This document shows positions 1,380-39,489 of a DNA stretch of 64,000 nucleotides, piece after piece. The notes beneath the pieces were generated by a model. The model searched no databases and was not told where the DNA came from. It saw nothing but the letters and a program-made list of their open reading frames with translations. Source of the stretch: Parasphingorhabdus marina DSM 22363. GTDB taxonomy: Bacteria > Pseudomonadota > Alphaproteobacteria > Sphingomonadales > Sphingomonadaceae. The stretch's first letter is position 1. Each line of letters opens with the position of its first letter. The translations under genes were made by a program, and so were the position numbers. The DNA lies in the NCBI RefSeq assembly GCF_900128895.1, contig NZ_FSQW01000001.1, positions 1,798,001 through 1,862,000 on the forward strand, given 5' to 3'.

Positions 1380-1424
1380 TAGCATTTTCCGGGGTCGCGG
1401 ACCCGAAACCATGGGAATTCAAAG

Positions 1425-3041: not shown

Positions 3042-3356
3042 CCACCCGCAAGGTCCGGAGTTATCGGATTTGATGTCAAGGACGGACGATTCCGGGGCCG
3101 AGTGATCCCGGTCAAATGCGCAAGAAACTGTGGTCTGTGGATCACAGTGCGGACTTTTGCGATGAATTGCCGGTACAAATATTCGCGCATTTATCCTGAA
3201 TTAAACACGGTATTTCAGCGTCTTGCGAAATATTCATGCCCCGTTTCGAATTACGAATTTGCGCACAGCTCATCGCGAACGCATTGATGACTCCGGTTTT
3301 CGGCGTAGTTGTGAGCGTGACGGGGATTGCGCGCTCCGTCATGCTTGGGGGTATTT
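3042..3356. other. Intergenic region upstream of the S9 peptidase gene
   Basis: 315 bp with no convincing gene. It contains an inverted repeat ACTGTG-N10-CACAGT at 3127-3132 and 3143-3148 and a fairly AT-rich stretch at 3170-3270 that probably holds the promoter of the 3357 gene. No U-tract hairpin is seen after the hydrolase gene. I cannot assign the dyad to a regulator. Confidence 0.4.
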
Positions 3357-5482: not shown

Positions 5483-6715
5483 ATGCCACTGATTACCAAT
5501 GACATCGTCACTTTCGGGCTCTTGTCCATCATGCTGGGCGTATTGTTTTATGCCCGCAGTCTCGGTGGCGGATGGACAAAGTTTTTCACTTTCGTTCCGA
5601 TCGTTCTGCTCTGCTACCTCATCCCCTCCCTGCTCAACAGCTTCGGTGTCATATCCTCCGAAGACAGCGGCCTGTGGGACATCGCCAAAAACTATTTCCT
5701 TCCGGCGGCGCTGATCCTGTTGACACTCAGCATTGATCTAAAGGCCGTATGGGGACTGGGACCCAAAGCGCTGATCATGTTCTTCACTGCCACGGTGGGC
5801 ATCATCATCGGCGGTCCGCTGGCGATCATGATTGTCGGATCGTTCAGTCCCGAAACCGTGGGAGGCAGTGGTGCCGATGCGACCTGGCGAGGGCTGGCGA
5901 CGCTCGCCGGAAGCTGGATCGGTGGCGGCGCGAACCAGACCGCCATGCTTGAGGTCTATGGCTATAATCCCGAGCGCTATTCAGCGATGGTGGCGATCGA
6001 TATCGTGGTCGCCAATATCTGGATGGCCTTCCTGCTCTACGGTGCCGGCAATGCGGACAAGATTGATGCCTGGCTGAAGGCCGATTCCAGCGCGATCGCA
6101 ACCCTGCGGGACAAAATGGCGAATTTCAGCCTCGCCGTCGAACGCAAGTCGACGGTGGAGGAACTGATGGTGCTGCTTGCCATTGCCTTTGGCGGGGTGG
6201 GGCTGGCGCATTTCGGAGCGGGTCTGATCGGCCCGGCCTTTGCATCAGCTTTCGGCAGCTCCGAGGGTGTGCTGTCAAGCAGCTTCTTCTGGATTGTGGT
6301 GATCTCGACCACGCTGGGTCTGGGGCTGAGCTTTACGCGGGCGCGGGATCTTGAAGGAGCGGGGGCATCGAAATTCGGAACCGTGATGATTTTCCTTCTG
6401 GTGGCCATTATCGGCACGAAGATGGATATCTTTCGCATGGCGGAACAGCCATTGCTGATGCTGGTCGGGATTATCTGGATGCTGATCCACACGATCCTGC
6501 TGTTCATTGTTGCAAAGATCATCCGCGCGCCGTTTTTCTTTATCGCGGTTGGCAGCAAGGCGAATGTCGGAGGTGCCGCTTCGGCGCCCGTGGTTGCGGG
6601 CGCCTTTCACCCGGCCCTGGCACCGGTGGGCGTTTTGCTTGCCGTTCTGGGATATGCACTCGGGACCTATGGCGCAATCATGACCGCGGAACTGATGCGC
6701 ATGGTCGCTCCGTGA
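5483..6715 (+). CDS. DUF819 family integral membrane protein
   Basis: 410 residues with about ten hydrophobic segments. The signature region AGSWIGGGANQTAMLEVYG (about residues 143-162) and the C-terminal SKANVGGAASAPVVAGAFHP are those of the DUF819 (YjcL-like) family of predicted transporters. The ATG at 5483 follows GGGAG at 5471-5475, which lies inside the last codons of the S9 peptidase; an in-frame TTG at 5477 is less likely. Function is not established for the family. Its place between a secreted peptidase and a D-threonine-aldolase-like PLP enzyme suggests uptake of a peptide or unusual amino acid; this is inference from context only. Confidence 0.85.
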   Translation: MPLITNDIVTFGLLSIMLGVLFYARSLGGGWTKFFTFVPIVLLCYLIPSLLNSFGVISSEDSGLWDIAKNYFLPAALILLTLSIDLKAVWGLGPKALIMFFTATVGIIIGGPLAIMIVGSFSPETVGGSGADATWRGLATLAGSWIGGGANQTAMLEVYGYNPERYSAMVAIDIVVANIWMAFLLYGAGNADKIDAWLKADSSAIATLRDKMANFSLAVERKSTVEELMVLLAIAFGGVGLAHFGAGLIGPAFASAFGSSEGVLSSSFFWIVVISTTLGLGLSFTRARDLEGAGASKFGTVMIFLLVAIIGTKMDIFRMAEQPLLMLVGIIWMLIHTILLFIVAKIIRAPFFFIAVGSKANVGGAASAPVVAGAFHPALAPVGVLLAVLGYALGTYGAIMTAELMRMVAP

Positions 6716-6798
6716 TTGCAAGCGATGGCAGGAATGGGCTAGCTGTTTGACCTGCGGCACTTTATTGTCCGTTTCCGGAGGCCCGTCAGGATCGAGAC

Positions 6799-7965
6799 AT
6801 GCAAAATGAATCCGGTTCCACTGCGTCAGTTCCTCTGTCCGAAATCCAGACACCTGCGCTGCTGCTGGATCTGGCGAAGCTAGACGCCAATAGCGCGCGT
6901 CTGAAAAAGCATCTGGACCAGGTTGCACCCGATATCCTGCATCGCCCGCATCTGAAGACGGCCAAATCTCTGGAGATTGCCGAGCATGTTCTGCGTGGCC
7001 GGGAGCAAGCGATTACCGTTTCAACCTTGCGGGAAGCCGAAATTTTTGCCCGGGCCGGGTTCCGCGATATCCTCTATGCTGTCGGTATCGTCCCGTCCAA
7101 ATTGGCGCGCGTTGCGGCTGTGCGAGAACAGGGAGCGGATCTGAAGATCATTACCGACAATGCGGACGTCGCGCGCCGCATTTCCGAATTCGCGGCACGT
7201 ACCCATATGACCATTCCCGTCCTCATTGAAATCGATTGTGATGGCCACCGGTCTGGCCTTCGACCGGCGCAATCCGATGCCATTGTTGCGGTTGCAAAGG
7301 CGCTGACCGATGGCGCAGAGCTGGCGGGAGTGATGACCCATGCCGGCGGGTCGTATGATGCGGGCAATTCACAGGAAGTCGCAGCGGCAGCTTCTGGTGA
7401 AGTGGCTGCCATTGTGCAGTCGGCACAAATTCTGCGCGATGCAGGATATTCTGTTCCGATTGTTAGCATCGGTTCCACGCCAACCGCTCTCAGTGTAGCT
7501 GACCTCTCCGGAGTGACAGAGATCCGGGCCGGTGTGTACATGTTTTTCGATCTTGTCATGGCCGGGCTGGGGATATGCCGGGTTCGTGATATCGCGCTGT
7601 CGGTTCTGACCACCGTGATCGGCCATCAGCCGGACAAGGGCTGGATCATTGTTGATGCCGGCTGGATGGCGATGTCGCGGGACAGGGGCACAGCCAGCCA
7701 GGACGTTGATCAGGGATATGGCCTGGTATGTGATCCGGACGGCCAGCCGATTCCGGATCTGATCATGGAGAGTGCCAATCAGGAGCACGGCATCATCGCG
7801 ATGATGCCGGGGTCGGCAGGTTCATTGCCCGATTTTCCGGTTGGTAGCCAGCTGCGGATCCTGCCCAACCATGCCTGTTCAACAGCTGCGCAGCACGGTC
7901 ACTATGACGTTCTCGACAGCGAGAATCGGGTCATTGCGAACTGGCAAAGATTTGGTGGCTGGTAA
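6799..7965 (+). CDS. D-threonine aldolase / D-serine dehydratase-like PLP enzyme (fold type III)
   Basis: 388 residues. The N-terminal alanine-racemase-like barrel begins TPALLLDLAKLDAN and carries the PLP-binding lysine Lys53 in RPHLKTAKS. The C-terminal beta domain has the metal-ligand pattern PNHACST with His358 and Cys360, as in the eukaryotic-type D-serine dehydratase and D-threonine aldolase group. These enzymes use PLP plus a divalent metal to cleave or deaminate beta-hydroxy D-amino acids. The gene lies 83 bp after the DUF819 gene on the same strand, and with the upstream S9 peptidase may form a peptide-to-amino-acid utilisation unit (inference). Which of the two reactions it performs cannot be decided from sequence. 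Confidence 0.82.
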   Translation: MQNESGSTASVPLSEIQTPALLLDLAKLDANSARLKKHLDQVAPDILHRPHLKTAKSLEIAEHVLRGREQAITVSTLREAEIFARAGFRDILYAVGIVPSKLARVAAVREQGADLKIITDNADVARRISEFAARTHMTIPVLIEIDCDGHRSGLRPAQSDAIVAVAKALTDGAELAGVMTHAGGSYDAGNSQEVAAAASGEVAAIVQSAQILRDAGYSVPIVSIGSTPTALSVADLSGVTEIRAGVYMFFDLVMAGLGICRVRDIALSVLTTVIGHQPDKGWIIVDAGWMAMSRDRGTASQDVDQGYGLVCDPDGQPIPDLIMESANQEHGIIAMMPGSAGSLPDFPVGSQLRILPNHACSTAAQHGHYDVLDSENRVIANWQRFGGW

Positions 7966-8281
7966 AATCATCAGAACACCCTCATTTCTGAAGATTCAAG
8001 GAAACAGACGGTGATCCTGATCCTTGGGATTCTGGTTAACGGGATATGTGCCAAAACGGGACAAAACTGGCGCTAAGCAAGTAAAATCAGGTAATAGTCT
8101 GCCGTACGGAGTAAATTCTTTCCTTAACAACCAGTTGCGGTTTGATTCTGCGTCCGCTTCTCCTTTAGCAAGAACCCGGGTCGATTTACGGAAGAGATAT
8201 TCTTTCCGGACACCGCTGAGAAAGCGTCCTGGCCCGTTCCAGACAGTTTTCCAGACCTCCGGAAGGAATCGGGGGTATGTA
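7966..8281. other. Long leader/promoter region of a PEP-CTERM gene
   Basis: 316 bp without a convincing gene. It holds TGTGCCAAAACGGGACAAAA at 8047-8066, which resembles a dyad upstream of the second PEP-CTERM gene (22421-22439). A reading frame runs through from 8024 in phase with the downstream gene but has atypical composition and no ribosome site, so I treat it as untranslated leader. Confidence 0.45.
8047..8066. promoter_or_regulatory. Candidate operator shared by the two PEP-CTERM genes (copy 1)
   Basis: TGTGCCAAAACGGGACAAAA lies about 215 bp upstream of the PEP-CTERM start at 8282. It is a degenerate version of the perfect dyad TTGTGTC-AAAAC-GACACAA found upstream of the other PEP-CTERM gene of this window. 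Sharing of the motif is seen; a role as activator site is inference. Confidence 0.4.
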
Positions 8282-8974
8282 ATGAACAAAATGAAAAAGA
8301 TGCTGGCAGTGTCTGCTGCAGCTATTGCCATGGTGGCAATGCCTGCCGCGGCTTCAGCCGAGGTGCTGGTTTACCACGCAACAAACTACACAAGCGGGCC
8401 CGGCAAGCACGGTCTGTGGACCAATACGCTGAACAGCGGTTCCGACCGGTTTTACGAATTCCAGTCAGACATGATTTTTACCGTGGACACGGTGGCCGGA
8501 ACCGGCTCTCTGACCGGGACGGCCATCAATCCATCCAATGCCGTGGCGGAAATCAACATCCTGCTCGGCGGGTTTCTGGAGACGACCAACGGTTCGCCTT
8601 TTCAGTACAAGCAGGAAGGTGGCGGCGCTTATGATCCGCTGACCGATACGCCGGATGTCGATTTCTTCACCACCGCGACGGGCTCGATCACGATTGACGG
8701 CAACCAGTTCAATCTCCGGTCCAATCCTTTTGCCAGCAATTATGCTTTTCAGTGGGGGCAGGGTGCCAATGCCAAAAATAATGATTTTGGCGGTTCGTCC
8801 TGGCTTCTGGTCGAGGATGCCAATGGCCGCAACCTCGCGCACTGGGACGTGAACTTCAATCTCGCTGCGGTACCGGAACCGACAACCTGGGCGATGATGA
8901 TCATCGGCTTTGGTGCGGTTGGTGGTGCGATGCGCCGCAGAAAAAAACCGGCTATGGCATTCGCATACGCCTGA
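8282..8974 (+). CDS. PEPxxWA-CTERM sorting domain-containing exported protein
   Basis: 230 residues from the ATG at 8282, with GGGGG at 8271-8275. A signal peptide (MKKMLAVSAAAIAMVAMPAAASAE) is followed by a beta-rich, Gly/Asn/Thr-rich region that I do not recognise. The C-terminus has VPEPTTWAMMIIGFG, a hydrophobic helix and a basic end RRRKKP, the tripartite PEP-CTERM signal recognised by an exosortase in bacteria that make exopolysaccharide. The protein is therefore probably secreted, sorted at the outer envelope and cleaved at the PEP motif. No exosortase gene lies in the window. The gene is monocistronic, with a strong hairpin terminator just after it. Confidence 0.88.
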   Translation: MNKMKKMLAVSAAAIAMVAMPAAASAEVLVYHATNYTSGPGKHGLWTNTLNSGSDRFYEFQSDMIFTVDTVAGTGSLTGTAINPSNAVAEINILLGGFLETTNGSPFQYKQEGGGAYDPLTDTPDVDFFTTATGSITIDGNQFNLRSNPFASNYAFQWGQGANAKNNDFGGSSWLLVEDANGRNLAHWDVNFNLAAVPEPTTWAMMIIGFGAVGGAMRRRKKPAMAFAYA

Positions 8975-8993
8975 GTATTTCAGTGCTCGCAGA

Positions 8994-9027
8994 AAAGGGG
9001 CTGGCGGTGCGTTCCGCCGGCCCCTTT
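8994..9027 (+). terminator. Intrinsic terminator between convergent genes
   Basis: A 14-bp stem (AAAGGGGCTGGCGG / CCGCCGGCCCCTTT, one G-T pair) with a 6-nt loop follows the PEP-CTERM stop. The A-run on one side and T-run on the other allow it to serve the PEP-CTERM gene and the opposing dioxygenase gene. Confidence 0.8.
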
Positions 9028-9037
9028 GCATTTTGTC

Positions 9038-10210
9038 CTAGCGCAACAGATGCGCGTCCGCTTCGTCGCGGTGTTTTTTCAGATATTTCATGAACGGTGT
9101 TCCGCCGGTGCCGACATCGGACGTGTTGCCGGATCCTCCGCGCGACTGTTTGTTGATGTAACTTGCTGCATATTCCAGATGACGGGTCCGGAAGCGCGTC
9201 AGATTTTCGATACAGTCATTATAGAGCGATTTCAGCGCGGCATTGTCCTGCCTCTGAATATGATTGCGGAGCTGGCTGTTCGCACGGATATCGTCAATGA
9301 AACGCCGGTGTTCGGGCGGACGATAGATATGCAGCTGATCAAGATAGGTGCGCAGCGGATCACCGGCATGATCGACTCCCAGGAAGGCATCCATTGCAGG
9401 GACAATTGAGGACTGGGAGCCGGTCTGACCGCGAAAGCTTTGCGGTTTTCCGTTCAGCCCTGCGACCCCTTCATATATCAGTCCGTCGGGTAGCGCGGGA
9501 TTGTCCTTCCAGCCGTGGATCCAGGGCCGAACCCGATGGAAATAGACATAGGGATCACAGCGTTCGGGCATCCGGTTGAAAATGGCGTTCATGTCATCCC
9601 AGACGGTCGACATGGCGGCGAGGCCGCTTTCCAGAGCGGCGGTATCGTCATTGTCACAGGCAGCGATCAATGCGGGAATGGTCGCCAGCATTGCGCCCGC
9701 GCGGGCTTCAATCGCTACGTGAATCAGTACGAACCAGGCTTCGTCCTGCCCGCCGAGAAACGGCTGATTCATGTAGACGTTGGACAGATCGATCTCTTTG
9801 CCGGAATCAATCCGTCCCCAGTTATCAAGTACATAGGCGGAATAGGTCAGAAGCGGTGGCTGGCCAATCGAATCGCTTAACTGCCAGATCGGGACGGCGA
9901 TGGATGGCGGCAGGGATCGGGGGGCTTGCGGTTCGCCCCAGACATAGGACTGAACAAGGAAGGAGTAATGCACAAAGGCGGCACGCTGTTCGGCGAGACT
10001 GGCACCTTGACAAAAATCACTGAGGTCCAGTGTGGGCAGTGTCGCGATATGCCGACGGACTTCGCCGGACACCAATAGCCGCGGCAGGTCCATTGCCAGG
10101 TTCACGACCGGCGCGAAAAGGTCCGGCAAAACCACATCATGCGCATCGTGCGGAGAGAGAAAACCGCGGTCGCTGGAAATGCCGTAGGCGGCGGGATCAG
10201 AGGATATCAT
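9038..10210 (-). CDS. Indoleamine 2,3-dioxygenase family haem protein
   Basis: 390 residues, the usual IDO length. Diagnostic blocks are FRGQTGSQSSIVPAMDAFLGV (haem-site loop, residues about 260-280), YRPPEHRRFI, the proximal haem ligand His344 in RFRTRHLEYAASYI, and GTGGTPFMKYLKKHRDE near the C-terminus. IDO opens the indole ring of L-tryptophan to N-formylkynurenine with O2 in the cytosol, the first step of the kynurenine route; bacterial IDO homologues may prefer other indoles. GGAG lies 7 bp before the ATG. No kynureninase or formamidase is adjacent. The gene is divergent from an Lrp/AsnC regulator across 100 bp, which suggests tryptophan- or kynurenine-responsive control. Confidence 0.88.
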   Translation of the reverse strand: MISSDPAAYGISSDRGFLSPHDAHDVVLPDLFAPVVNLAMDLPRLLVSGEVRRHIATLPTLDLSDFCQGASLAEQRAAFVHYSFLVQSYVWGEPQAPRSLPPSIAVPIWQLSDSIGQPPLLTYSAYVLDNWGRIDSGKEIDLSNVYMNQPFLGGQDEAWFVLIHVAIEARAGAMLATIPALIAACDNDDTAALESGLAAMSTVWDDMNAIFNRMPERCDPYVYFHRVRPWIHGWKDNPALPDGLIYEGVAGLNGKPQSFRGQTGSQSSIVPAMDAFLGVDHAGDPLRTYLDQLHIYRPPEHRRFIDDIRANSQLRNHIQRQDNAALKSLYNDCIENLTRFRTRHLEYAASYINKQSRGGSGNTSDVGTGGTPFMKYLKKHRDEADAHLLR

Positions 10211-10233
10211 GTCCGGGCTCCATCAGGATTTGA

Positions 10234-10250
10234 CTATTCTGCAATAATAG
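10234..10250. promoter_or_regulatory. Candidate Lrp/AsnC operator between the dioxygenase and regulator genes
   Basis: CTATT-CTGCAAT-AATAG is an inverted repeat in the AT-rich divergent promoter region, 24 bp upstream of the dioxygenase start codon. AsnC-type regulators commonly bind degenerate AT-rich dyads next to their own gene. The dyad is seen; its assignment is inference. Confidence 0.35.
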
Positions 10251-10310
10251 CCGACATTGACCGAAAATATCTTGCTTTTTGATCTATGGAATAGGGATAA
10301 ATATCAATAA

Positions 10311-10763
10311 ATGATGGAAATAGACCTCATAAACCGCAAGATATTGCGTGAGCTGGAGATCAATGCCCGGATCAGTAATTCCGATCTGGCGGGACGTGTC
10401 GGCCTGTCACCTTCGGCCTGTCTGCGCCGGGTACAGGAACTGGAGCGCAGGGACGTGATCAAGGGCTATCGCGCGATTGTCGATCCGGCGGTACGCGGCG
10501 CTGCGATCACGATATTTGTGATGGTCGGCCTGTCCGAACATCTCAAAAAGGATGCCCTGGCTTTCGAGGACGCGATTGCCGAGGCGCCCGAAGTCCGCGA
10601 GTGCCACAACATCACGGGATCGGTCGAATATCTGCTCCGCGTCGAAGTGGCGGATCTTGCCGCCTACAAGGCGTTCCATGCCGATATTCTCGGCGAACTG
10701 CCCCAGGTTGGGAGCATTACCTCCCATATCTGTCTGGGCTCGCCAACCGACAAAAGGGCCTGA
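10311..10763 (+). CDS. Lrp/AsnC family transcriptional regulator
   Basis: 150 residues. Residues 1-60 form the AsnC-type helix-turn-helix (LINRKILRELEINARISNSDLAGRVGLSPSACLRRVQELE), and 65-145 the RAM ligand-binding domain with the IFVMVGLSEHLKKDALAFE...V.ECHNITGSVEYLLRV pattern. Such regulators form octamers and bind amino acids. Divergent pairing with an indoleamine 2,3-dioxygenase resembles the Pseudomonas arrangement in which the AsnC-type KynR controls kynurenine genes, so tryptophan or kynurenine is the likely effector (inference). Two consecutive ATG codons (10311, 10314) could start it. It converges with the VOC gene at 10780 with only 16 bp between stops. Confidence 0.9.
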   Translation: MMEIDLINRKILRELEINARISNSDLAGRVGLSPSACLRRVQELERRDVIKGYRAIVDPAVRGAAITIFVMVGLSEHLKKDALAFEDAIAEAPEVRECHNITGSVEYLLRVEVADLAAYKAFHADILGELPQVGSITSHICLGSPTDKRA

Positions 10764-29560: not shown

Positions 29561-31402
29561 GTGGAGGAATTCTTGATTGGACGGTGCCGGGCAATGCCGG
29601 CGCGCAATGTTATCGCTCGCGGTGACAAGAGAATTTCACTTGAACCGAAAGTGATGGCGGTTCTTGAGTGCCTTCGCGAACGACAGGGAGAGGTTGTCGA
29701 GCGGATCACCTTGCTGGATGAAATATGGAACGATGATGAAGCCGCTGATGACAGCCTGACACGCGCCATCTCTCTTTTGCGCAAGGCTTTCAGCAGTCTC
29801 GACAACAATTCCTACATCGAAACCATTCCCAAAAAGGGCTATCGGCTGAAGCCAGCGCTTTCCAGGCCCGGCGGCCCCTCACGTGCAACATCGCCGGTCC
29901 GTTCGATCGCTGTCCTGCCGTTTGTCGATCTGAGTCCGGAAAATAGTCAAGGCCATTTTGCCGATGGCATGACCGAGGAAATCCTCAATACGCTGACGCA
30001 CATGCCCAAGGTCGCCGTTGTCGGCCGGACATCATCTTTCGCAGTGGATACGGACCGGAAAACCGCTCAGCAAATTGGCGCCGCATTGAACGTCGACTAC
30101 CTCCTGGAAGGTTCTCTGCGCACATCTGACAACCGATTGCGGATCACCGCGAGGCTGGTGCAATCAACCGACGGTCATCAATTATGGTCCGAGACATATG
30201 ATGGGGACATCGGTGACATCTTCAACTTCCAGGACCGCATCGCGCGATCAATCTCGAACGAGCTCGCCCGAATTCTCGGATTGGCAAACACGACGCTTCC
30301 CGCCACCAGATTTACGCGCAATCCCGAGGCTTATGCGCTGTTTTTGCAAGGTCGTGAACTGGTTCATCAGTTGAATGGGCAAACAACCATTCCCAGTGGA
30401 ATTCATCTTCTCGAAAAAGCGATCACCGTCGATCCCGAGTTCACCGATGCCTATGCATGGCTGGCACTGGCCCATTTTATATTGCCGGAATTTTCACGCA
30501 CCCCGACCTGGCAGATGCATTTCGACCTGAGTGGCAAGGCGCTTGATCGGGCGCTGGCGCTTGATCCGAACTCGAGCATGGCCTTGTTGGTAAAAGCCTT
30601 GCGGCTGGCCTATCGCGGCGAACTCGACAAATCCCTGATCGTCTACGAGCAGGCTGTTACACTTGACCCGAACAATGTCGAAACCATGGCTGGCTTCGGT
30701 CTCGGGCTGATGTCGATCGGCCTGCATGAACAGGCGCGCCCTTATTGGGAACGGATCATTGAGCAAGACCCGCTGTGCGGCATATGGCACACCACATATG
30801 GCGGTTTGTTATTGTCGGCGGGGGAGTTCGAAAAGGCCGAAGCCGCCTTTCGTCGCTCCTTTGAGCTGGGCTTTGGTGCAGCCGCCTTCGGGGTGTCCCA
30901 TCGCATGGCCGAGCGCGGAGAGGCAGATGCTGCGATCGAATTCATGGAAGCAAATTTTGATGGTCTGGCGCCAATAGAACAGGCCGAGCTGAGATGGTCA
31001 CCGGTGCGACGACTGGTCTATCAGGCCTATCTGAAGAAAAGCCGGTTTGCGAAGATGATTGTCAGAGCCGCACTCAAAAGCAGACTGAATGACCGCAAGG
31101 CGCAGCCTACTGCTGCATCCACAATCGGCTTCCTGTTTCTGGGTGATCCGGAATCCTACATGCGGAATATTCTCGAAAAACCGAACTCCTACATCGGCTA
31201 TACCGTGGCACGCATCTGGGAACCAACGGCAGAGTCCGAAAGCATTCGGACGCACAAGGATTTTCGAAGCTTCGCTGAACGTCTTGGCCTGCCGCGCGCG
31301 TGGAACAAATATGGCTGGCCGGAAAGTGTTTCTCCATGGATATCCCAGGCCCCTGAGCTGAGGAATGACATGCCGGGGCGGGGGCATCTGGTTGGCGTAT
31401 GA
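29561..31402 (+). CDS. Winged-helix (OmpR/CadC-type) regulator with TolB-like and TPR domains
   Basis: 613 residues. Residues about 8-100 are a trans_reg_C winged helix (ISLEPKVMAVLECLRERQGEVVERITLLDEIW...NNSYIETIPKKGYRLKP). Residues 110-230 resemble the TolB amino-terminal/adenylate-cyclase-associated domain (RSIAVLPFVDLSPENSQGHFADGMTEEILNTLTHM...GRTSSFAV...GAALNVDYLLEGSLR). From about 255 on there are TPR repeats (AITVDPEFTDAYAWLALAHF, AVTLDPNNVETMAGFGLGLM). No membrane helix is visible between the DNA-binding and TolB parts, so it is probably a cytosolic regulator unlike CadC itself. Start could be GTG 29561 or TTG 29573 (GGAGGAA at 29563-29569). Divergent from the small exported protein, its possible target. 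Confidence 0.82.
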   Translation: MEEFLIGRCRAMPARNVIARGDKRISLEPKVMAVLECLRERQGEVVERITLLDEIWNDDEAADDSLTRAISLLRKAFSSLDNNSYIETIPKKGYRLKPALSRPGGPSRATSPVRSIAVLPFVDLSPENSQGHFADGMTEEILNTLTHMPKVAVVGRTSSFAVDTDRKTAQQIGAALNVDYLLEGSLRTSDNRLRITARLVQSTDGHQLWSETYDGDIGDIFNFQDRIARSISNELARILGLANTTLPATRFTRNPEAYALFLQGRELVHQLNGQTTIPSGIHLLEKAITVDPEFTDAYAWLALAHFILPEFSRTPTWQMHFDLSGKALDRALALDPNSSMALLVKALRLAYRGELDKSLIVYEQAVTLDPNNVETMAGFGLGLMSIGLHEQARPYWERIIEQDPLCGIWHTTYGGLLLSAGEFEKAEAAFRRSFELGFGAAAFGVSHRMAERGEADAAIEFMEANFDGLAPIEQAELRWSPVRRLVYQAYLKKSRFAKMIVRAALKSRLNDRKAQPTAASTIGFLFLGDPESYMRNILEKPNSYIGYTVARIWEPTAESESIRTHKDFRSFAERLGLPRAWNKYGWPESVSPWISQAPELRNDMPGRGHLVGV

Positions 31403-31454: not shown

Positions 31455-33461
31455 CTAGTCCACCGGGATTTTCAGTGTGACACAGGTTCCACGTCCGCTG
31501 GTTGACCGGATCTCGAAGGCGTGATCCGCGAGCCCGGCATATTGCTGCACCAGATACAGGCCGAGGCCATGCCCATCGCTGGCCGGGCCCTTTACATTGG
31601 CGGCCTGCATCGCTTCGGCATCAGATTGTTCCATGCCCTGTCCATTGTCGATGACGCGCAACAAAACATGATCCGATCGCTTCTGGACTGCGACCAGCAC
31701 CTTGTTGGCATTGGCATGGTTGAGCGCATTGGCCACCAGATTGCTGAGGGACCGGACAAGGTCTATCGGTTCGGTCCGGACCATCAGGTCGCTGCTCCGC
31801 ACACGGAGCTCCACACCGCGCTGTTCGGCATCCGCGGCAAACATCGCGGCACAGTTGGACAGCACCAGGCTGATCGCAAAGACTTCCATGCCCTGTTCGG
31901 GTTTTTCTCCGGGCAGGATATTGTCAGATCTGGCGATGTCGAGACCGGTTTCCGTGACATTTTCGAGATAATCCAGCGCTGCCTTCAGCCTTTCATCTTC
32001 TTCGGGATTGCGTCCGGTAACTTTGGCAAGACTGTGGCGCAGGGCGAGAAGGGGTTGCTGCAGGTCGTGCGATGTCGATACCAGTTGCGAGCGGAGACCG
32101 TCCGCAAGGTCACGCGCCGCGTCGTATCGGTTGCGGCTGTCCTGCAAGGCTTCGGACAGCGCCAGTTTTTCCTGGGTGGCACTGACTTCTGCGGCAAGTG
32201 ACCGGTTCAATTCTGCCTGAATGGATAGCATGCGCACCAGGATCGCGACCAAAAAAGCCAGACCTTCCAGAATGACGGCAGCGTGAAAATAGTCGAGCGC
32301 CACAGTCAAAGGAAACTGACCGGGAGAAAGCAGCACGGCGGCCATGGTTACGACGGTGAACAATATGGCAACCGACCCGGCCAGGAACGGGATCGCGCCG
32401 AGCACCCGGGCGCGCCAGGCCGACACCGCAATCGTCAGATAGGCGATAGCCACGAGCGGCACGAACAGATACACGGCCCAGCGCATGGCAGCGAGCTGCC
32501 AGAAGAACAGGCTGGAAACCGCCAGAATGCAGAGCAGCAGCTGCAGTCCGATGACGGCGCGATTGAGACGTGCAAAATGTTTTCCGAGATCTGCAAACAA
32601 CCGCGCAAACTGGAGCAGGGCAATCATCATCACTGACAGGAGCAGCAGGTTGGCCGGTTCATATGTGCCCATGGATCCGGGCCAGAAAAAGCGGTGCAGA
32701 TACCCTTCATTATTGGCCACAAAAAGCGCACTGAAACTTGCATAGGCGGCGAATGCCATGACCAGCGGCCAACCGGCCAGACGACCCATGGCAAGGGCGA
32801 TGATAACCAGCGCCACCATGATCCCGTTCAGAATCCAGTTGGTACGCGCTTCCTGCATATGCGCTGTGCGCATGCGTTCTTCGGTGGCGAAGGTCAGGGG
32901 TATCCAGCTTCCCGTGGATGACCGGAGACCGACCAGAATTTCAGCGCGTTCTCCGGCCTCCATCCATAGCGGCGCGACAAGATACTGGCTGATGATCGGT
33001 CGTTCATCGAAATGCGTCTCGCGATCCACATCCAGAAGCGTTTCGACCGGTTTGCCCGGGCCACGCTTTTGCACGATCAGTTCGTCCACAAACGGGCGCT
33101 GGATATCGATGATCCACCGGCCGCCGCGCTCGCTGGCATTCTCTATTGCTACCAGCAGCCAGACGGACCCTTCCTGTTCGCCGAAATCCACCCATGGGCT
33201 TTCGAGCGCCCGGAATTCCTCGCGCCTCGCGATTGCCTTCTCCGGATCAAGCGTGTCGGCGTCGCTGATCAGGTAGCGCAGGCTGCCAAATGGCTGCAAA
33301 TGGTTGTTGCCTTGGGGTAGCGGTACGGGATCGGTCTGACCGGCCTCTGCTTCGGCCTGTGCCATGACCGGCGCAGAGAAGGAGAGTGCAACAACAGACA
33401 GCAACAATGCGACAAGCAAAAACAGCTGGCTGTGATTTGGACAGAAGGACCGCGTGATCAT
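31455..33461 (-). CDS. 7TMR-DISM-type sensor histidine kinase
   Basis: 668 residues. N-terminal signal peptide, then a periplasmic 7TMR-DISM extracellular domain (about 45-205, WVDFGEQEGSVWLLVAIENASERGGRWIIDIQRPFVDELIV), seven membrane helices (about 210-400), a coiled region (410-455), and a kinase core. His465 in STSHDLQQPLLALRHSL is the phospho-acceptor; the ATPase domain shows NLVANALNHANANKVLV, VIDNGQGM and GHGLGLYLVQQYAG. 7TMR-DISM receptors bind carbohydrate-like or other external ligands. It follows the NarL-type regulator gene on the same strand and has the 18-bp dyad 35 bp before its start. Probably senses the cue that switches the MACPF operon (inference). Confidence 0.88.
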   Translation of the reverse strand: MITRSFCPNHSQLFLLVALLLSVVALSFSAPVMAQAEAEAGQTDPVPLPQGNNHLQPFGSLRYLISDADTLDPEKAIARREEFRALESPWVDFGEQEGSVWLLVAIENASERGGRWIIDIQRPFVDELIVQKRGPGKPVETLLDVDRETHFDERPIISQYLVAPLWMEAGERAEILVGLRSSTGSWIPLTFATEERMRTAHMQEARTNWILNGIMVALVIIALAMGRLAGWPLVMAFAAYASFSALFVANNEGYLHRFFWPGSMGTYEPANLLLLSVMMIALLQFARLFADLGKHFARLNRAVIGLQLLLCILAVSSLFFWQLAAMRWAVYLFVPLVAIAYLTIAVSAWRARVLGAIPFLAGSVAILFTVVTMAAVLLSPGQFPLTVALDYFHAAVILEGLAFLVAILVRMLSIQAELNRSLAAEVSATQEKLALSEALQDSRNRYDAARDLADGLRSQLVSTSHDLQQPLLALRHSLAKVTGRNPEEDERLKAALDYLENVTETGLDIARSDNILPGEKPEQGMEVFAISLVLSNCAAMFAADAEQRGVELRVRSSDLMVRTEPIDLVRSLSNLVANALNHANANKVLVAVQKRSDHVLLRVIDNGQGMEQSDAEAMQAANVKGPASDGHGLGLYLVQQYAGLADHAFEIRSTSGRGTCVTLKIPVD

Positions 33462-33495: not shown

Positions 33496-33513
33496 ATGGG
33501 GCCAATCCCCCAT
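33496..33513. promoter_or_regulatory. 18-bp dyad upstream of the sensor kinase gene
   Basis: ATGGGGCCAATCCCCCAT; its reverse complement ATGGGGGATTGGCCCCAT differs from the dyad at 34280-34297 at only two central positions. It lies between the stop of the response regulator gene and the start of the kinase gene. Likely binding site of the NarL-type regulator. Confidence 0.7.
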
Positions 33514-33543: not shown

Positions 33544-34176
33544 TCATAACTGGCGATGCTCGTCTAGCAGACCTTCGCGAAGCGCGTATGTCAGCAGCCC
33601 GGAGACGGAGTTTACACCCAGCTTGGACATCAGGCTGGCCCGGTGTTTTTCAACGGTTTTCGGGCTGATGAAGAGCTTTTCGCCAATAGCGGCATTCTGG
33701 TGACCCGCCGCGATCAGCGCCAGGACTTCGCGCTCCCGATCGGTCAGATCTTCCCCCTTTGGCGCCGCAGCCAGTTTGTCGGCAACTTCCTCGGAGACAA
33801 ACTTCCCGCCAGCGAGGACCTGGGCAAATCCCTTTTGCATTTCTTCCGGCTGCGCCGATTTGAGGAACAGGCCATCGACACCGGCGGCCAGCCAGTCGGC
33901 GAGCATCGCGGTTGAGGTGAAACCTGTCACGACGATAATGCGTGTCTCCGGTGACCAGCGCCGCGCCTCTCCGTAAACCTGGACCCCCCGCGCCAGCGGC
34001 ATGGCGGCGTCAAGCAGCAGCAGATCCGGGGTGTGCTGCTTGACCAAGGCAATGGTCTCAATTCCGTTCTCGGCTTCGGCCACGACTTCGACGTCACCAA
34101 TTTCGGCGAGTATGCCGGCGAGTGAATTGCGCACGATCGCATGGTCATCGGCAATGATCGCGCGGTATCTGGACAT
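33544..34176 (-). CDS. NarL/LuxR-type response regulator
   Basis: 210 residues from the ATG at 34176, which follows CAGGAAATC; an ATG at 34203 is in frame but poorer. Receiver domain 1-120 with acidic pocket DD (10-11), phospho-acceptor Asp56 in DLLLLDAAMP, Thr in VVTGFT and Lys in LFLKSA. C-terminal LuxR HTH 145-205: LTDREREVLALIAAGHQNAAIGEKLFISPKTVEKHRASLMSKLGV. Cognate of the kinase 82 bp downstream on the same strand. Divergent from the MACPF operon, whose promoter region holds the shared 18-bp dyad. Confidence 0.92.
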   Translation of the reverse strand: MSRYRAIIADDHAIVRNSLAGILAEIGDVEVVAEAENGIETIALVKQHTPDLLLLDAAMPLARGVQVYGEARRWSPETRIIVVTGFTSTAMLADWLAAGVDGLFLKSAQPEEMQKGFAQVLAGGKFVSEEVADKLAAAPKGEDLTDREREVLALIAAGHQNAAIGEKLFISPKTVEKHRASLMSKLGVNSVSGLLTYALREGLLDEHRQL

Positions 34177-34279
34177 GATTTCCTGCACTTCCCCAGAGGA
34201 CATCCCTCATTAGCTTCTTAGGGCGAACCGGATGGTCGTGCAATCGCATGTGCTGTTACCGGAAAAACCGGAATCGCGG

Positions 34280-34297
34280 ATGGGGGATTTACCCCAT
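34280..34297. promoter_or_regulatory. 18-bp dyad between response regulator and MACPF operon
   Basis: ATGGGGGATTTACCCCAT lies 133 bp upstream of the first operon start (34430) and 104 bp from the response regulator start. The match to the kinase-upstream copy is 16 of 18. A half-site, ATGGGGGAT at 34415-34423, overlaps the ribosome site of the 34430 gene. Confidence 0.72.
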
Positions 34298-34429: not shown

Positions 34430-35350
34430 ATGAAGCATACATGGAAATCAACGGTATTCGCAGGACTGTTTGCCGTCGGCGCGCTTGGCGGAACGACAGC
34501 GGCTCAGGCACAAATACCGGCCTTTCTGCCCAAGGTTGAACAGGTCCAGCCTGGCGAAGCGACCGATGCCGATGGCACATATGTCGTTTCCACTATTAAC
34601 AAGCGGATCACCATCGAACGGGGGCGTGCCTATGTTGTTGATCCCTGGAACCATGCTCTGGTGCTGCGTGTACAGCGCGGCATGGTCACGCTGAAGAATT
34701 TCCGCCAGACGGGCCCAAACCAGTTTGAAGCCGACGACCTGCCGATGATGGGCAAGGTCATATTCGATCGCCAGCCGAACGGGACGCTTCAGGGCGTGGT
34801 TCAGGGTGCCGGGGGAGAAGCCAAATATGCACTGGTCCCGACAGAATATGCCGGGGCTCCAGGGATTGATGATCCGGGGTTGGGAGCTCCACCGCCCGCA
34901 CCGGCAAAGCCGCGTATCTACCGGTTGCACGTCAGCGGTTCCAATTGTGCGGGCAAATCCCTCTTGCGCAAGCGTTATCGCGGGGTTGTCCGGATCAGCG
35001 TGGTCGATCGCGAAGGGGATGTGCTGCTATCCAAAAGCCGGAACTTCAGCGTCCGCTGCACGGACAAAGGACCACGCAGTCAGAACTACCGATATTACAA
35101 AGACGGACCGGGCTCGCTGACCATGACCATCCCTCAGGGCGCGGACGGCTTTTCCGATCTGCGGGTCCGCGGCACGCTCAATGATCCTCTGGGCAGGGTG
35201 GATTTCAACAACAACAAAAGCGACTTGCTGGCCCAGGCCCGCGCGCTTGGTCGGGATCTGAACGTCAATGAGAAGGTGAAAGACAAGCTGAAGCTGGTGA
35301 ATGCCAAGGCGGCGTTGCACTTCACCATCACCATGGAGCGGGTGCAGTGA
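34430..35350 (+). CDS. Exported two-domain protein paralogous to the flanks of the MACPF protein
   Basis: 306 residues from the ATG at 34430 with GGGGGA at 34417-34422. Signal peptide cleaved probably at AQA|QIPAFLP. N-domain (28-145) has GRAYVVDPWNHALVLRV and DDLPMMGKV, closely matched in the MACPF protein by GRAYAVDGWIHALVLSV and DDLPLMGRV. A Pro/Ala linker (about 150-162) leads to a C-domain with Cys173 and Cys210, again matching the C-terminal domain of the MACPF protein, whose cysteines are also 37 residues apart. There is no MACPF core. The stop overlaps the next ATG (TGATG), so stoichiometric co-synthesis is likely. It could be an assembly partner, plug or immunity-type protein; this is inference. 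I do not recognise either domain as a named family. Confidence 0.8.
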   Translation: MKHTWKSTVFAGLFAVGALGGTTAAQAQIPAFLPKVEQVQPGEATDADGTYVVSTINKRITIERGRAYVVDPWNHALVLRVQRGMVTLKNFRQTGPNQFEADDLPMMGKVIFDRQPNGTLQGVVQGAGGEAKYALVPTEYAGAPGIDDPGLGAPPPAPAKPRIYRLHVSGSNCAGKSLLRKRYRGVVRISVVDREGDVLLSKSRNFSVRCTDKGPRSQNYRYYKDGPGSLTMTIPQGADGFSDLRVRGTLNDPLGRVDFNNNKSDLLAQARALGRDLNVNEKVKDKLKLVNAKAALHFTITMERVQ

Positions 35351-38016
35351 TGAAACGGACAGGCCTCCTGGCGCTCGCCGCCACCACCTTGGTGGCCGGT
35401 CCCATGCTTGCACCGGCACAGCCGGTGCACGCCCAGATCCCGGCCTTTCTCCCCAGCAAGGACTCGGTTCCAGCCGGTGATCCAATGGACATAGATGGCG
35501 ACTGGCGGGTCGACACGATCGGCAAGGTCATCCGCATCGATCGCGGCAGGGCCTATGCCGTCGATGGCTGGATCCATGCGCTGGTTCTGAGCGTTCGGCC
35601 CAATATGGTCACGATCCGCAATATCCAGCGGGTCAGCGACGGCGTTTATGTCGGCGATGACCTGCCGCTGATGGGGCGCGTGACGATGCGGGTTGTTTCG
35701 CCCGACCGGATCGAAGCGAGCGTGCCGGGCCTGTTCGGTGCCACGCGCTACAATCTCATCCGGGTTACCGGTGCCGGAAATCCGAAAGTGGATGGACCAC
35801 CCATGTTCGTGGGCACACCGCGTACGGATAGCCCGTCCCAAGCTGGCAATATCGGACAAGGTGACCTGCCTCAACCGGCCTTTGCTTCGCTGTCGCAAGC
35901 GTTTGGCGAGCCGCGACCCGTCACCGAAACTTTCCAGGGTTGCGCGATACCGAAATCCGCACGCCGGAATCTGCTGGCCAAAGCCCCCGATGAAGAACCC
36001 CAGGAACCACGCGACCGGATGACAAACCGGCAATTCGCGCCGGTTGCAGACGACAGCAATGACAAAACCACGCCAGATGCTGGCGACCTGTGCTGGACAC
36101 GGCTTGACGGGGTCTGGGTCGAAAATCGCGATGCCGTGTTCGACACCGCGCGCAATGACGGGCGCCAGTGGGATGTTCAGAACAGCCCGCTCGCCGGCCT
36201 GTTGCATGGCAATTATACCACGCCCGAGACGCTGTTTATCGCCCCCGGGGATAGTGAGAACGAATTGTGGGTGATGTCAGGAACCAATGAGCTGCGCTTC
36301 ACCCGTTTTCTGTCGGAAGACCACAAAACCATTGCCGATCTCATCGGTCAGACCGGCGTGTCGAAAATCTATCGGGCCGAGGGCCGTTCCGTCTTTGGCG
36401 GCGAGCTCACAATCGACTACACCGCCGGCGACCAACTGCGCATCCGTTTCGGTCGCCGCCATTTTCTCCGTCCGCCCACTGCGAAGGACAACGACCTGTC
36501 GATGGATGACGTGTTCGTGATCCAGTATCAGACAGATAATTTCGCCGCCAATCTCAAAGGCTATAATGTCCTGACGCAAGATCCGTTCCTGCTGATGAAC
36601 AATGACATGGGTGAGATATTTGCCCGGCGCGATCGTGACGAATATCGGATCCAGGAAAAATATGCCGTACCGTTCGGGTTCTCTTTGAAAAACGAGCTAT
36701 TGCAAGGGAATGTCTTTCGCAGCACCATCGTTTCGAGCGAGCGCGAGATGCAGGAGGCGACCAGCTCCAGTTTTGGTGTGAATGCCACCATCAGCGCTTC
36801 AGGAGCGGTCAATTCCTTTCTCGCCTTCGTGCCCGGCACCGGCCAGATCGCAGATACGGGCTACAGTGTCGGCTATTCCTCCACTCGTTCGGCTATGCAG
36901 ACGATGCGCCAGAATCAATCGGTGGCGCAGGTGGTCGGCTACTCGCGGGCGAAAAGCTACGCGATACTGGTGGATCATGCGCAAACCAGGCTTTCGGCTG
37001 ATTTCCTGACGGCAGTCGGGGATGCGCAGATTGAAGGCGGTTACCGCGAACTGATCGACCGGTTCGGGACCCACTACGCCTATGCCGTGACCTATGGCGC
37101 GAGCGCAAAAATGACGCGCGACATCACGAATGAGGCGTTTTCCGAAACGCTTTCCGAAACCGAAGGCGACCGGCTGGAAGGGGAAGCGCGCCTGCTGGGC
37201 AGTTCCATTGGCGGTTTCACCGAAGGCATGCGCACTGGTGTGAACGGCTCAGGCCGTTCCATTGGCAATGAAGGCGGCCGGTTTGTCGCCGTCGGCGGCA
37301 ACGGTTCCTGGGATTCCTCCGGCTATTCGCGGGGCGACCGGGTGGCGCCGATCCTGCTGGATCTGCGTCCGCTGGACGAATTGCTCAATCCGATCAATTT
37401 CCCGGATCAGCCTGACGTGTATACACGGGTGCGCGCCGAACTGGGACAGGCCATCAACCGCTATCTGGCCAGTCAGGCCCGGCCTCTTTCCAATGATCGC
37501 CTGATTTCCCGCGTCACATACACCGCGCCGCCACCCGAACCGGAGCCGGAACCCGGACCGCAAATCGAGGAATGGCATGTCTATGTCCCTCAGATCAATT
37601 GTCGCAAGGTTGGCGTGGGGACAACCAATGAAGTCGTCGGGACGATCCGGATCACCAGTGCCGGCGGGACGCCTAATGGCTTTGCCCAGAGCAAGGAACT
37701 GCGCACCGATTGCGAGCGTGGTGGCAATGGTGCGAAGAAGAATTACAGCTACCGCGCTTCGGACAATGAACCGGGCCTGATGATCCTGCGCGGCACTCGG
37801 GACCAAATCCGCCGCTATCAGCTGAAATTCAATTTCAGCTGGAAATATCGCGGGGTGACCAACGGCAAGAACCGCACATCGAGCCGCACGCTTGCCAGCA
37901 CACCAATGCAGGGTGGGGGGCTGGAGATCGACAAGTCTCACACCACGACCTGGACGGTAAGTCCGAAGCGTCGTCCGGAGGTGAAGCTGAAACTCCGTGT
38001 GAAACGTATCAAGTGA
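35350..38016 (+). CDS. Exported MACPF/perforin-domain protein
   Basis: 888 residues. Signal peptide with cleavage near VHA|QIPAFLP. N-domain 29-145 shared with the preceding gene; a variable linker and a beta-rich section to about 400; then the MACPF core, with Tyr565, FGTHY at 572-576 (YRELIDRFGTHYAYAVTYGA) and the later GGRFVAVGGNGS region. A PEPEPEPGP linker near 725-735 is followed by a C-domain with Cys751 and Cys788. MACPF proteins oligomerise into rings and insert beta-hairpins into target membranes; bacterial members include toxins and interbacterial or predation factors. The start could also be GTG 35347. The MACPF assignment rests on the signature motif and its surroundings. Confidence 0.85.
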   Translation: MKRTGLLALAATTLVAGPMLAPAQPVHAQIPAFLPSKDSVPAGDPMDIDGDWRVDTIGKVIRIDRGRAYAVDGWIHALVLSVRPNMVTIRNIQRVSDGVYVGDDLPLMGRVTMRVVSPDRIEASVPGLFGATRYNLIRVTGAGNPKVDGPPMFVGTPRTDSPSQAGNIGQGDLPQPAFASLSQAFGEPRPVTETFQGCAIPKSARRNLLAKAPDEEPQEPRDRMTNRQFAPVADDSNDKTTPDAGDLCWTRLDGVWVENRDAVFDTARNDGRQWDVQNSPLAGLLHGNYTTPETLFIAPGDSENELWVMSGTNELRFTRFLSEDHKTIADLIGQTGVSKIYRAEGRSVFGGELTIDYTAGDQLRIRFGRRHFLRPPTAKDNDLSMDDVFVIQYQTDNFAANLKGYNVLTQDPFLLMNNDMGEIFARRDRDEYRIQEKYAVPFGFSLKNELLQGNVFRSTIVSSEREMQEATSSSFGVNATISASGAVNSFLAFVPGTGQIADTGYSVGYSSTRSAMQTMRQNQSVAQVVGYSRAKSYAILVDHAQTRLSADFLTAVGDAQIEGGYRELIDRFGTHYAYAVTYGASAKMTRDITNEAFSETLSETEGDRLEGEARLLGSSIGGFTEGMRTGVNGSGRSIGNEGGRFVAVGGNGSWDSSGYSRGDRVAPILLDLRPLDELLNPINFPDQPDVYTRVRAELGQAINRYLASQARPLSNDRLISRVTYTAPPPEPEPEPGPQIEEWHVYVPQINCRKVGVGTTNEVVGTIRITSAGGTPNGFAQSKELRTDCERGGNGAKKNYSYRASDNEPGLMILRGTRDQIRRYQLKFNFSWKYRGVTNGKNRTSSRTLASTPMQGGGLEIDKSHTTTWTVSPKRRPEVKLKLRVKRIK

Positions 38017-38035
38017 CTGACAGAGGAGTGAACCA

Positions 38036-38716
38036 ATGAAAAAATCCATATCAGCTGCGATCATCGCTTTCGGACTGGCAACATCGCCGACCATGGTTGC
38101 GGCACAGGACTACACGCCCGACGTCATCGAATTGACCGAAACCGGGCCCTTTGCATTCGAACCTGCTGCGCAGCTTGATCTGTCGGGCGGCGGCGCTGTG
38201 GAATTCTGGATCGCGACCGGCTGGATGCAGGACCCGGGTTATGATCCGCCGGTTCTGATCAACATCGGGGGTGAAGGCATATCCTATCTGATATCGGTCA
38301 TGCGTGAGCGGGACGGACTGGTATTCGCAAATGCCGACGACGAAGATGTGTTTCTTGTCGATCTGAGTGATGGCAACCTCCATCACGTCGCGATCAATGT
38401 CATGGATGACGGGATTGAAGTCTATGTCGATGGCGTGGTGATCGGCACCAGTGATCTCCGGCCACTCTCTCTGCCTTCGTCCGGACTCTATGTCGGGGGT
38501 CTGGGCCTCGAGGATGCTGGCAAGTTTACGGGCGCGATCGGTCAGCTGCGGTTCTGGAAAGAGCCCTTGCGGGAACAGGACATCGTGGCGTTCCGCATGC
38601 GCGATGTCCTCGATCCCGACGCGGGTGATCATCCCGATGCCGAGCATCTGTCGGCAATGAGTGATTTTTCCACCGGCCAGATGATGCTGGTGGAATCTGT
38701 GGGAGACGCCCAATGA
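38036..38716 (+). CDS. Exported LamG/concanavalin-A-like domain protein
   Basis: 226 residues with AGGAG upstream. Signal peptide (MKKSISAAIIAFGLATSPTMVAAQ). The mature chain shows the LamG/laminin-G-like jelly-roll pattern: GGAVEFWIATGW, DGNLHHVAINVMDDGIEVYVDGVVIG, LYVGGLGLEDAGKFTGAIGQLRFWKEPLREQDI. Such domains bind glycans or proteins, often with calcium. Directly after the MACPF gene (19 bp), it may provide target binding for the pore protein (inference). The stop overlaps the next start by ATGA. Confidence 0.82.
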   Translation: MKKSISAAIIAFGLATSPTMVAAQDYTPDVIELTETGPFAFEPAAQLDLSGGGAVEFWIATGWMQDPGYDPPVLINIGGEGISYLISVMRERDGLVFANADDEDVFLVDLSDGNLHHVAINVMDDGIEVYVDGVVIGTSDLRPLSLPSSGLYVGGLGLEDAGKFTGAIGQLRFWKEPLREQDIVAFRMRDVLDPDAGDHPDAEHLSAMSDFSTGQMMLVESVGDAQ

Positions 38717-39489
38717 AAGCCTCAGCATTCCTTTGTACCGGAGCAGTCTTGGCGCTCGCCACCAGCGGCCTCGCGCCAGTTCCCCACATGACTTCCGCTG
38801 GATATGCCGCGGGTCTGTCGCAACCGGGTGGAGCCCCGGGGCCAAAAAAGCGTGGAACGCGCGCAAAGAGCAAAAAGGCTGCAGCAGGCAAGGTGTCCGC
38901 TTCCAAAAAGCAGGGCAACCGGAGCAAGAAGTCTTCGCGCAGCCGTTCCGGCAGAAATGCGAAGAGTGGTGTAACAACGGGCGCTACCGCATCGGCACCG
39001 GTCGCTTCGGGACGACCAGGTCAGAGCACATCGCGAACCGGAGCGGATCGCCGTGTGAGCATGACCGCTGTCTCCGGTGTTCCCATCGCCACCCCGTCGG
39101 CCCAGGCAAATACGGGTCCGGGACAGCGCGCCAGTCTTGATGTCAACACGCCACCGCGCTCGCCCCGGTCACGGACGGTTCGTCAGACATCACCAGCCCA
39201 GCGCGGGGCAAACAGCCGGAAACGGACAAATCGGATTGCCAATGGCTATGTCGCAAAGGCCGCCGTCCGGCCATCTCGTCTCAACGGTACAGGAAAAGTG
39301 ACCTTCAACAATACCCCGCAAGTTGCAGTTTTTGACGGCGCACGGCCGGCCAACCAGATCCAGCGACCCACGCCCCGGGATTCGGGCGTGTCATCGGTCA
39401 TCACCCGGCAGCCGATGGAGGCACGCACCAAGGGCCGCGTCAGGACGTTTTTCGGCAAGCTTCAAAAGGCTCTGACCTTCCGCAGGTGA
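38713..39489 (+). CDS. Exported highly basic low-complexity protein
   Basis: 258 residues, starting within the LamG gene (ATGA overlap). An N-terminal hydrophobic segment (MKASAFLCTGAVLALATSGLA) probably directs export. Residues about 40-85 are very rich in Lys, Arg, Ser and Gly (PKKRGTRAKSKKAAAGK, SKKSSRSRSGRNAKSG), and the rest is Arg/Ser/Thr/Pro-rich without globular pattern until a short amphipathic C-terminus RTFFGKLQKALTFRR. No family recognised. A cationic exported protein could bind lipopolysaccharide, anionic membranes or DNA, or be an antimicrobial partner of the MACPF protein; this is inference. Confidence 0.7.
   Translation: MKASAFLCTGAVLALATSGLAPVPHMTSAGYAAGLSQPGGAPGPKKRGTRAKSKKAAAGKVSASKKQGNRSKKSSRSRSGRNAKSGVTTGATASAPVASGRPGQSTSRTGADRRVSMTAVSGVPIATPSAQANTGPGQRASLDVNTPPRSPRSRTVRQTSPAQRGANSRKRTNRIANGYVAKAAVRPSRLNGTGKVTFNNTPQVAVFDGARPANQIQRPTPRDSGVSSVITRQPMEARTKGRVRTFFGKLQKALTFRR

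Follow-up and report, generated by a model that had tools for sequence, protein, structure and literature searches.

A conserved multi-gene MACPF cassette of Parasphingorhabdus marina, its candidate operator and its possible use as a secreted pore-forming weapon

Introduction

Lymphocyte perforin carries a disulfide-rich EGF module between its MACPF and C2 domains. The MACPF protein considered here is encoded in a 64,000-nucleotide stretch of Parasphingorhabdus marina DSM 22363 (contig NZ_FSQW01000001.1, positions 1,798,001 to 1,862,000), the whole of which is called the window below. In its predicted model a C2-like domain also follows the MACPF core, as in lymphocyte perforin, but the protein differs from lymphocyte perforin, perforin-2 and complement C9 in having no cysteines from residue 379 to residue 751, and therefore no perforin-type EGF module. 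It further adds two domains, termed the N-domain and the B-domain, and is bacterial, with dedicated partner genes. In comparison with the aegerolysin/pleurotolysin B system (OlyA/PlyB), the partner protein here matches LamG rather than aegerolysin, and we know of no counterpart in that system of the core-less paralogue, the cationic gene or the private sensor described below.

In the CDCL long/short pairs of Elizabethkingia, two related secreted subunits are encoded in one operon and the short one has been proposed to be a scaffold for its partner (PMC7527733). The short CDCL member lacks the C-terminal region, whereas the first product of the present operon (G1) has the flanking domains without the core; both members of a CDCL pair keep the MACPF/CDC core. 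The BSAPs of the Bacteroidales are secreted MACPF proteins in which the core is followed by a C-terminal domain (PMC12853789). They possess a lipidated N-terminal cysteine, an export signal and other flanking domains, whereas the protein of the window has no cysteine before residue 199. Other bacterial MACPF proteins compared were GNIP1Aa, Mpf2Ba1, Plu-MACPF (taken here to be 2qp2) and a Bacteroides MACPF protein (presumably 3kk7), and we know of no such cassette for any of them.

An earlier note, made from the sequence of the window alone, had drawn attention to the four genes and stated that its author knew of no described system of this composition; full-text searches, which covered few subscription papers or preprints, likewise found no description. 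The cassette is a real, conserved multi-gene MACPF set, undescribed within the literature searched.

Organisation of the operon

The four co-directional genes lie on the forward strand between positions 34430 and 39489 (Table 1), at the coordinates first noted. The stop codon of G1 (TGA) and the ATG of the MACPF gene have one base in common (TGATG, 35348-35352); the ATG at 35350 is the likely start, with an upstream GTG alternative at 35347. The LamG gene starts 19 bases past the end of the MACPF gene, behind AGAGGAG, and overlaps the gene of the basic protein by 4 bases. Owing to these overlaps and to the 19-base gap behind AGAGGAG, the four genes are read as one operon. The genes overlap or nearly overlap as described earlier, and signal-peptide-like starts, judged by eye, are present on all four proteins, which are probably exported. 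Three secretin places are found in the genome.

Table 1. Positions of the features of the cassette within the window
Feature	Position	Strand	Description
Sensor histidine kinase	31455..33461	-	7TMR-DISMED2, 7TMR-DISM_7TM and HATPase_c (Pfam)
Operator-like palindrome ATGGGG-N6-CCCCAT	33496..33513		between response regulator and kinase
LuxR-type response regulator	33544..34203	-	Response_reg and GerE (Pfam)
Operator-like palindrome ATGGGG-N6-CCCCAT	34280..34297		upstream of effector operon, before G1
G1	34430..35350	+	306 aa; probably exported core-less paralogue, N-domain and C2-like domain
G1 N-domain	34505..34840	+	about 112 aa; lipocalin-like in model, weak
G1 C2-like domain	34904..35347	+	Cys173/Cys210
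MACPF protein	35347..38016	+	N-domain, low-confidence linker, B-domain, MACPF, C2-like
N-domain of MACPF protein	35428..35766	+	
B-domain ('DGVWVEN' region)	36091..36480	+	alignment A5
MACPF core	36481..37518	+	residues 379-724; Pfam; PLP1/perforin profile matches; VIA
Putative membrane-inserting hairpin 1	36703..36972	+	residues 453-542; two long model strands, low-confidence tip
Putative membrane-inserting hairpin 2	37072..37293	+	residues 576-649; two long model strands, low-confidence tip
C2-like domain of MACPF protein	37564..38013	+	Cys752/Cys789; basic, pI 10.5
LamG / ConA-like protein	38036..38716	+	probably exported; PF13385; strongly acidic, net -26
Cationic low-complexity protein	38713..39489	+	probably exported; net +42

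Several other origins were considered. The G+C content of the cassette (0.574-0.625, against 0.578 for the window) is not distinctive, and an island defined by composition was rejected for that reason. A phage origin was rejected also: the viral_contigs scan gave no relative and the PHROGs matches were weak (best E 0.0023). With regard to anti-phage defence, the four proteins matched no PADLOC family at E<=0.1, and none of them matches NCBIfam at E<=1.

The MACPF protein

The assignment of a MACPF domain, which the earlier note had staked on the predicted fold, holds: the protein scores 32.6 bits on PF01823 against a cut-off of 21.5, being the one place found in the genome with this family, and prediction returns a MACPF fold supported by VIA fold matches, Astrotactin-2 among them (fold families without a VIA listing may match as well). 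The MACPF signature consensus is [YW]G[TS]H[FY]x6GG; the signature here, FGTHY-AYAVTY-GA, is close to it and departs at the first and last position. FGTHY itself (37063-37077) falls at residues 572-576 counting from the ATG, as first reported, or 573-577 from the GTG. Four long model strands (453-483, 505-542, 576-616 and 619-649) make up the two putative hairpins, the tips of which have a pLDDT <50, and a beta-moment scan is weak, rising at 477-483 and 610-616 and elsewhere too. By hhalign the B-domain has no relation to the N-domain, the C-domain or LamG; its alignment excludes L083 (cut) and L087 (split).

Cysteines occur in the MACPF protein only at positions 199, 249, 752 and 789, which bears on a narrower form of the weapon reading set out further below, namely a BSAP-kind antibacterial toxin directed against close competitors, with receptor variation replacing an immunity gene. 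Resistance to BSAPs comes about through receptor variants. The Bacteroidales toxins choose their receptor by the C-terminal domain (PMC12853789), which favours this form; the absence of a lipidated cysteine tells against it, as does the finding that LamG, G1 and the cationic gene have no counterpart in the accessible part of the BSAP account. On this evidence the narrower form is possible, though we would sooner doubt it.

G1 as a core-less paralogue

G1 has only the N-domain and the C2-like domain and is without the MACPF core, so that the earlier idea of a MACPF protein with its pore core removed stands on the comparison of both flanks. The sequence QIPAFLP follows the signal in both proteins, and the landmarks GRAY.VD.W.HALVL.V and DDLP.MG.V are common to the two N-domains, all as previously observed. 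Alignment of the N-domains gives a score of 254, against 28 +/- 5 for shuffled sequences, none of 1000 of which reaches 254.

Both C-domains contain two cysteines spaced 37 residues apart, in agreement with the first description (173/210 in G1, 752/789 in the MACPF protein). Plain pairwise alignment of these domains yields a score of 32, which is not significant, 234 of 1000 shuffles being as good, so the relation is visible only through relatives and profiles: the single pair reaches 99.5% by hhalign (E 2.4e-22), while four other domain pairs used as controls reach 0.2-6.4%, and the G1 C-profile finds the C-domain of the MACPF protein at 8e-17. The C2-like ending of both proteins is assigned on predicted models of moderate confidence, with a mean pLDDT of 68.5 and pTM of 0.44 for the MACPF protein and 65.6 and 0.45 for G1. 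G1 has no Pfam match at E<=1.

The LamG and cationic proteins

The remaining two products also agree with their first description as LamG-like and very basic. The former scores 43 bits on PF13385 (cut-off 27.6), its Pfam matches at E<=1 being three laminin G families and TS_C, whereas the latter, with a pI of 12 and a net charge of +42 beyond residue 25, has no Pfam match at E<=1. In related loci, whose sampling is described in the next section, the net charge of LamG is -16 to -38 in all 25 aligned cases; of 242 gene calls with a length of 150-400 aa, 22 equal this acidity per residue, a background that may itself include LamG proteins. The cationic proteins carry +15 to +49 in all 23 paired loci and have little sequence in common, and the charges of the two partners correlate weakly between loci (r -0.29).

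Distribution of the cassette

Within the order, 11 of 396 genomes match the MACPF core at E<=0.001 and 10 are counted as real; marginal matches in G418 and at a second place in G194 were rejected as MACPF, the regions concerned holding a TonB-type receptor-like ORF (L066) and no MACPF-like ORF by eye (L067). Among 98 relatives, genome G000 included, 16 match the whole MACPF protein, all of them in the genus of the window, and with the exception of G000 they do so via the N-domain only. A further scan, limited to a single genome for each species and possibly not including the window's own, gave 24 MACPF loci, among them loci of Erythrobacter, Pontixanthobacter, Hellea, Marinicaulis, Sneathiellales, several gammaproteobacterial MAGs and a Bugula symbiont. 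Together with the window and L061, L062, L064 and L065 these make up 29 loci (L057-L060 and L063 are taken as L071, L070, L072, L074 and L088 and counted once), in which gene calls are the longest ORFs and the strand is sometimes wrong.

A LamG gene accompanies MACPF in 28 of the 29 loci and adjoins it in 26 (L092 is cut by the contig end); in L089 it lies beyond the kinase and regulator, and the contig of L083 breaks off within MACPF. LamG is fused N-terminally to MACPF in one ORF (L093:242-3394) of a Chromatiales symbiont of Bugula neritina. Next to LamG, 25/29 loci have a gene for a cationic protein whose start is hydrophobic; in L062, L085 and L086 it lies on the other strand. L076 and L093 have none, and L083 and L092 are cut. 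Fixed criteria of pI, hydrophobic start, net charge and few cysteines recover 24 of 27 cationic genes against none of the 397 remaining gene calls from the same loci, with narrow failures in L079 (pI), L080 (cysteine content) and L090 (charge per residue). A separate N-domain gene occurs in 15 loci and is missing from 14, some with cut contigs; in ten of the 15 it includes the C2-like domain, L073 being one of the ten, with its gene split between frames; wherever both exist, G1 lies directly upstream of MACPF. The constant core of the cassette is MACPF, LamG and the cationic protein. The earlier note would have been contradicted by scattered homologues, and what was found is a neighbourhood conserved far beyond this genome.

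Pairwise distances of MACPF and LamG correlate (r 0.80 over 25 loci; none of 2000 permutations in a Mantel test). Two loci from alphaproteobacterial MAGs fall inside a gammaproteobacterial clade of the MACPF tree with a local support of 0.994, a nesting that suggests transfer; the LamG tree, with weak supports, does not repeat this placement. The reading of these genes as a cassette is slightly strengthened by the 0/397 background and slightly weakened by the LamG tree. Unrelated secreted genes that merely came to share a promoter might look as they do here, co-directional and all apparently exported, yet the same set recurs across two classes, with one fusion and with correlated distances, and we give mere coincidence hardly any credence.

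The patchy distribution (10/396 genomes of the order) and the mixed MACPF tree look weapon-like and not like housekeeping, and the model retains the two putative inserting hairpins. These points weigh against a non-lytic surface or matrix system, in which the cassette would build an adhesive or protective layer of the producer, LamG and the cationic protein would cross-link and MACPF would no longer form pores. Such a system would accommodate the beta domains (LamG, C2-like and perhaps lipocalin-like) as well as the pairing of an acidic with a cationic protein, and inspection by eye revealed no immunity gene next to the cassettes. Non-lytic MACPF proteins exist, and Astrotactin-2 is one of the fold matches. 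We regard a matrix of this kind as unlikely.

Other genes recur near the cassettes. L086 has two tandem MACPF genes in one cassette (5882-10386) and four operator-like sites. A secreted accessory protein of about 270 aa lies beside the cassette or G1 (L062:10243-11058, L074:5844-6671, L086:4878-5828, L028:7981-8916), its L062 copy having no Pfam match. Downstream of the kinase several cassettes have a putative lipoprotein (L058:14874-15443, L062:3298-3912, L086:14874-15596), the gene of which has its own operator-like site in L086. Neither was found in the genome of the window, in a search run without a positive control.

Sensor kinase, regulator and palindrome

The first reading missed the regulatory half of the locus: a 7TM sensor kinase and a LuxR-type regulator, upstream on the other strand and divergent from the effector operon, with a palindrome common to both units. 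Relatives of both kinase and regulator (phmmer E<=1e-10) are present in 15/29 loci, the window included, and of the regulator only in 4, while 10 loci, several on short contigs, have neither. By eye, a CadC-like winged-helix regulator gene with a TPR-like region (window 29561-31402) adjoins the kinase, and a similar gene lies near the L024 locus (1401-3521).

The palindrome occurs twice in the window and in none of 100 shuffles, the copy at 34280 being preserved across six aligned upstream regions. In the 3.55 Mb genome it has three places, two of them in the cassette, against none for the reversed control pattern; the third stands at the start of what we take, from a motif, to be a fabZ-like gene and is probably due to chance. 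Of 16 further genomes, 7 have matches, and 11 of the 16 places lie inside the cassette, the extra ones adjoining genes without a recognisable link to it. Five genus members without the MACPF core and two other members of the family lack the palindrome. It is also absent from G194 and G099, in which the cassette is present, and the sole copy of G305 lies outside its cassette.

At the level of loci, sites are seen in 12 of 29 and not in 17. L061 has all four genes, a more distant kinase/regulator pair and no palindrome, while in L089 a LamG-basic pair set apart carries a palindrome of its own. Among ten hand-chosen upstream stretches from loci with the other kinase subtype, no palindrome with identical arms of 6-7 bases and identical spacing was found in two. 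ATGGGG-N6-CCCCAT looks like the private operator of one regulator subtype, which would bind it.

The wider N-domain family

The earlier note had asked whether the N-domain always travels with MACPF, and it does not. Elsewhere in the genus, 14 genomes carry it as a fusion with a Gly/Ala-rich module (9 loci), with a caspase domain (5) or with a ricin-B lectin (2), assignments that rest on a Pfam scan of one of each kind and on similarity for the others. A comparison of 33 N-domains with Pfam gave no match at E<=0.1, and the N-domain profile matches no PDB sequence at E<=5. Outside the genus the domain is rare: 385 genomes of the class yielded two more carriers, of which one is a marginal match. 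Both domains are present in two G1 orthologues (L028:6942-7892 and L024:13408-14379; E about 1e-89, with the C2-like profile at 3.5e-34 and 1.5e-29), which belong to genomes whose only matches to the MACPF protein are to its N-domain, and that of L024 overlaps a Gly/Ala-rich gene of 531 aa.

These data suggest a rival account of G1, compatible with the weapon reading: G1 would be a general docking or export partner, and the N-domain a surface or secretion tag of effectors belonging to the kinase family, placed on MACPF too. The N-domain fusions to three other modules speak for it, with kinase/regulator relatives beside 9/9 Gly/Ala-rich, 0/5 caspase and 2/2 ricin-B fusions, as do the G1 orthologues of genomes in which the search gave no MACPF core. 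Against it, G1 also has the C2-like domain of the MACPF protein, which among the N-domain proteins of the searched genus loci is otherwise found only on the two G1 orthologues, and its position directly upstream of MACPF is invariable where the 29 loci have both. We put this account at somewhat less than an even chance.

Further variants were seen. In the Gly/Ala-rich fusions (L025-L027 and L029-L034, e.g. L025:6786-8555) the module is conserved, C-terminally basic, without a Pfam match in the one copy scanned and beside a kinase/regulator pair; these proteins are possibly a second kind of membrane-active effector. The N-domain sits at the C-terminus of the caspase-domain proteins of L035-L039 (Pfam on L035). 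Both loci with ricin-B fusions (L024:7058-8032 and L041:8166-9170; Pfam on L041) contain Gly/Ala-rich genes without the N-domain (L024:11819-13414, L041:13023-14936). Short N-domain proteins with a similar tail and two cysteines around G.D..TG are encoded in L076, L078, L082 and L098, in the last after a caspase/SUMF1-like gene identified by eye.

Proposed mechanism

We hold it slightly more probable than otherwise that the cassette is a sensor-triggered, secreted, multi-component pore-forming weapon. The events that we infer would begin with the detection of an external signal, perhaps a sugar, by the 7TM kinase through its DISMED2 sensor, a class of domain for which sugar sensing is possible. 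The LuxR-type regulator would then bind the palindromes before the kinase gene and the effector operon, and the four proteins would be exported via their putative signal peptides and perhaps a secretin. Acidic LamG may recognise the target surface and recruit the MACPF protein, as its constant adjacency to MACPF and the one natural fusion suggest. Docked by its basic C2-like domain, the MACPF protein would oligomerise and insert its two predicted beta-hairpins into the target, which might be another cell, be it a bacterium or a microbial eukaryote. G1, which shares the N- and C2-like domains and is without the core, could bind the same surfaces without inserting and so act as a platform, spacer or brake of assembly. 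The cationic protein, whose part is the weakest step, might pair with acidic LamG, given their opposite charges, or loosen a negatively charged envelope.

The layout suggested at the outset, of a pore former with an assembly or regulatory subunit built from its flanks, a target-binding lectin and a cationic helper, is supported as regards the MACPF fold, the core-less paralogue and the conserved neighbourhood. It does not hold in making G1 simply a pore regulator, since the N-domain occurs on other effectors and two G1 orthologues lie in genomes where the search gave no MACPF core.

Significance

More broadly, and only tentatively, the cassette may be a signal-gated bacterial analogue of complement and perforin with division of labour, present in Alpha- and Gammaproteobacteria and part of a wider N-domain effector family. 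The division itself, in which the acidic lectin would target, the MACPF-C2 protein form the pore, the core-less N-C2 paralogue tune or seed and the cationic protein serve as escort, is proposed with equal reserve. If true, this would be a bacterial MACPF-C2 protein in the MACPF-then-C2 order of lymphocyte perforin, and G1 would show in nature how the domains that flank a pore core behave by themselves. With the partners for joint study named, and with a likely operator for the dedicated sensor, target, trigger and assembly would become testable in cultured strains of the Erythrobacter type.
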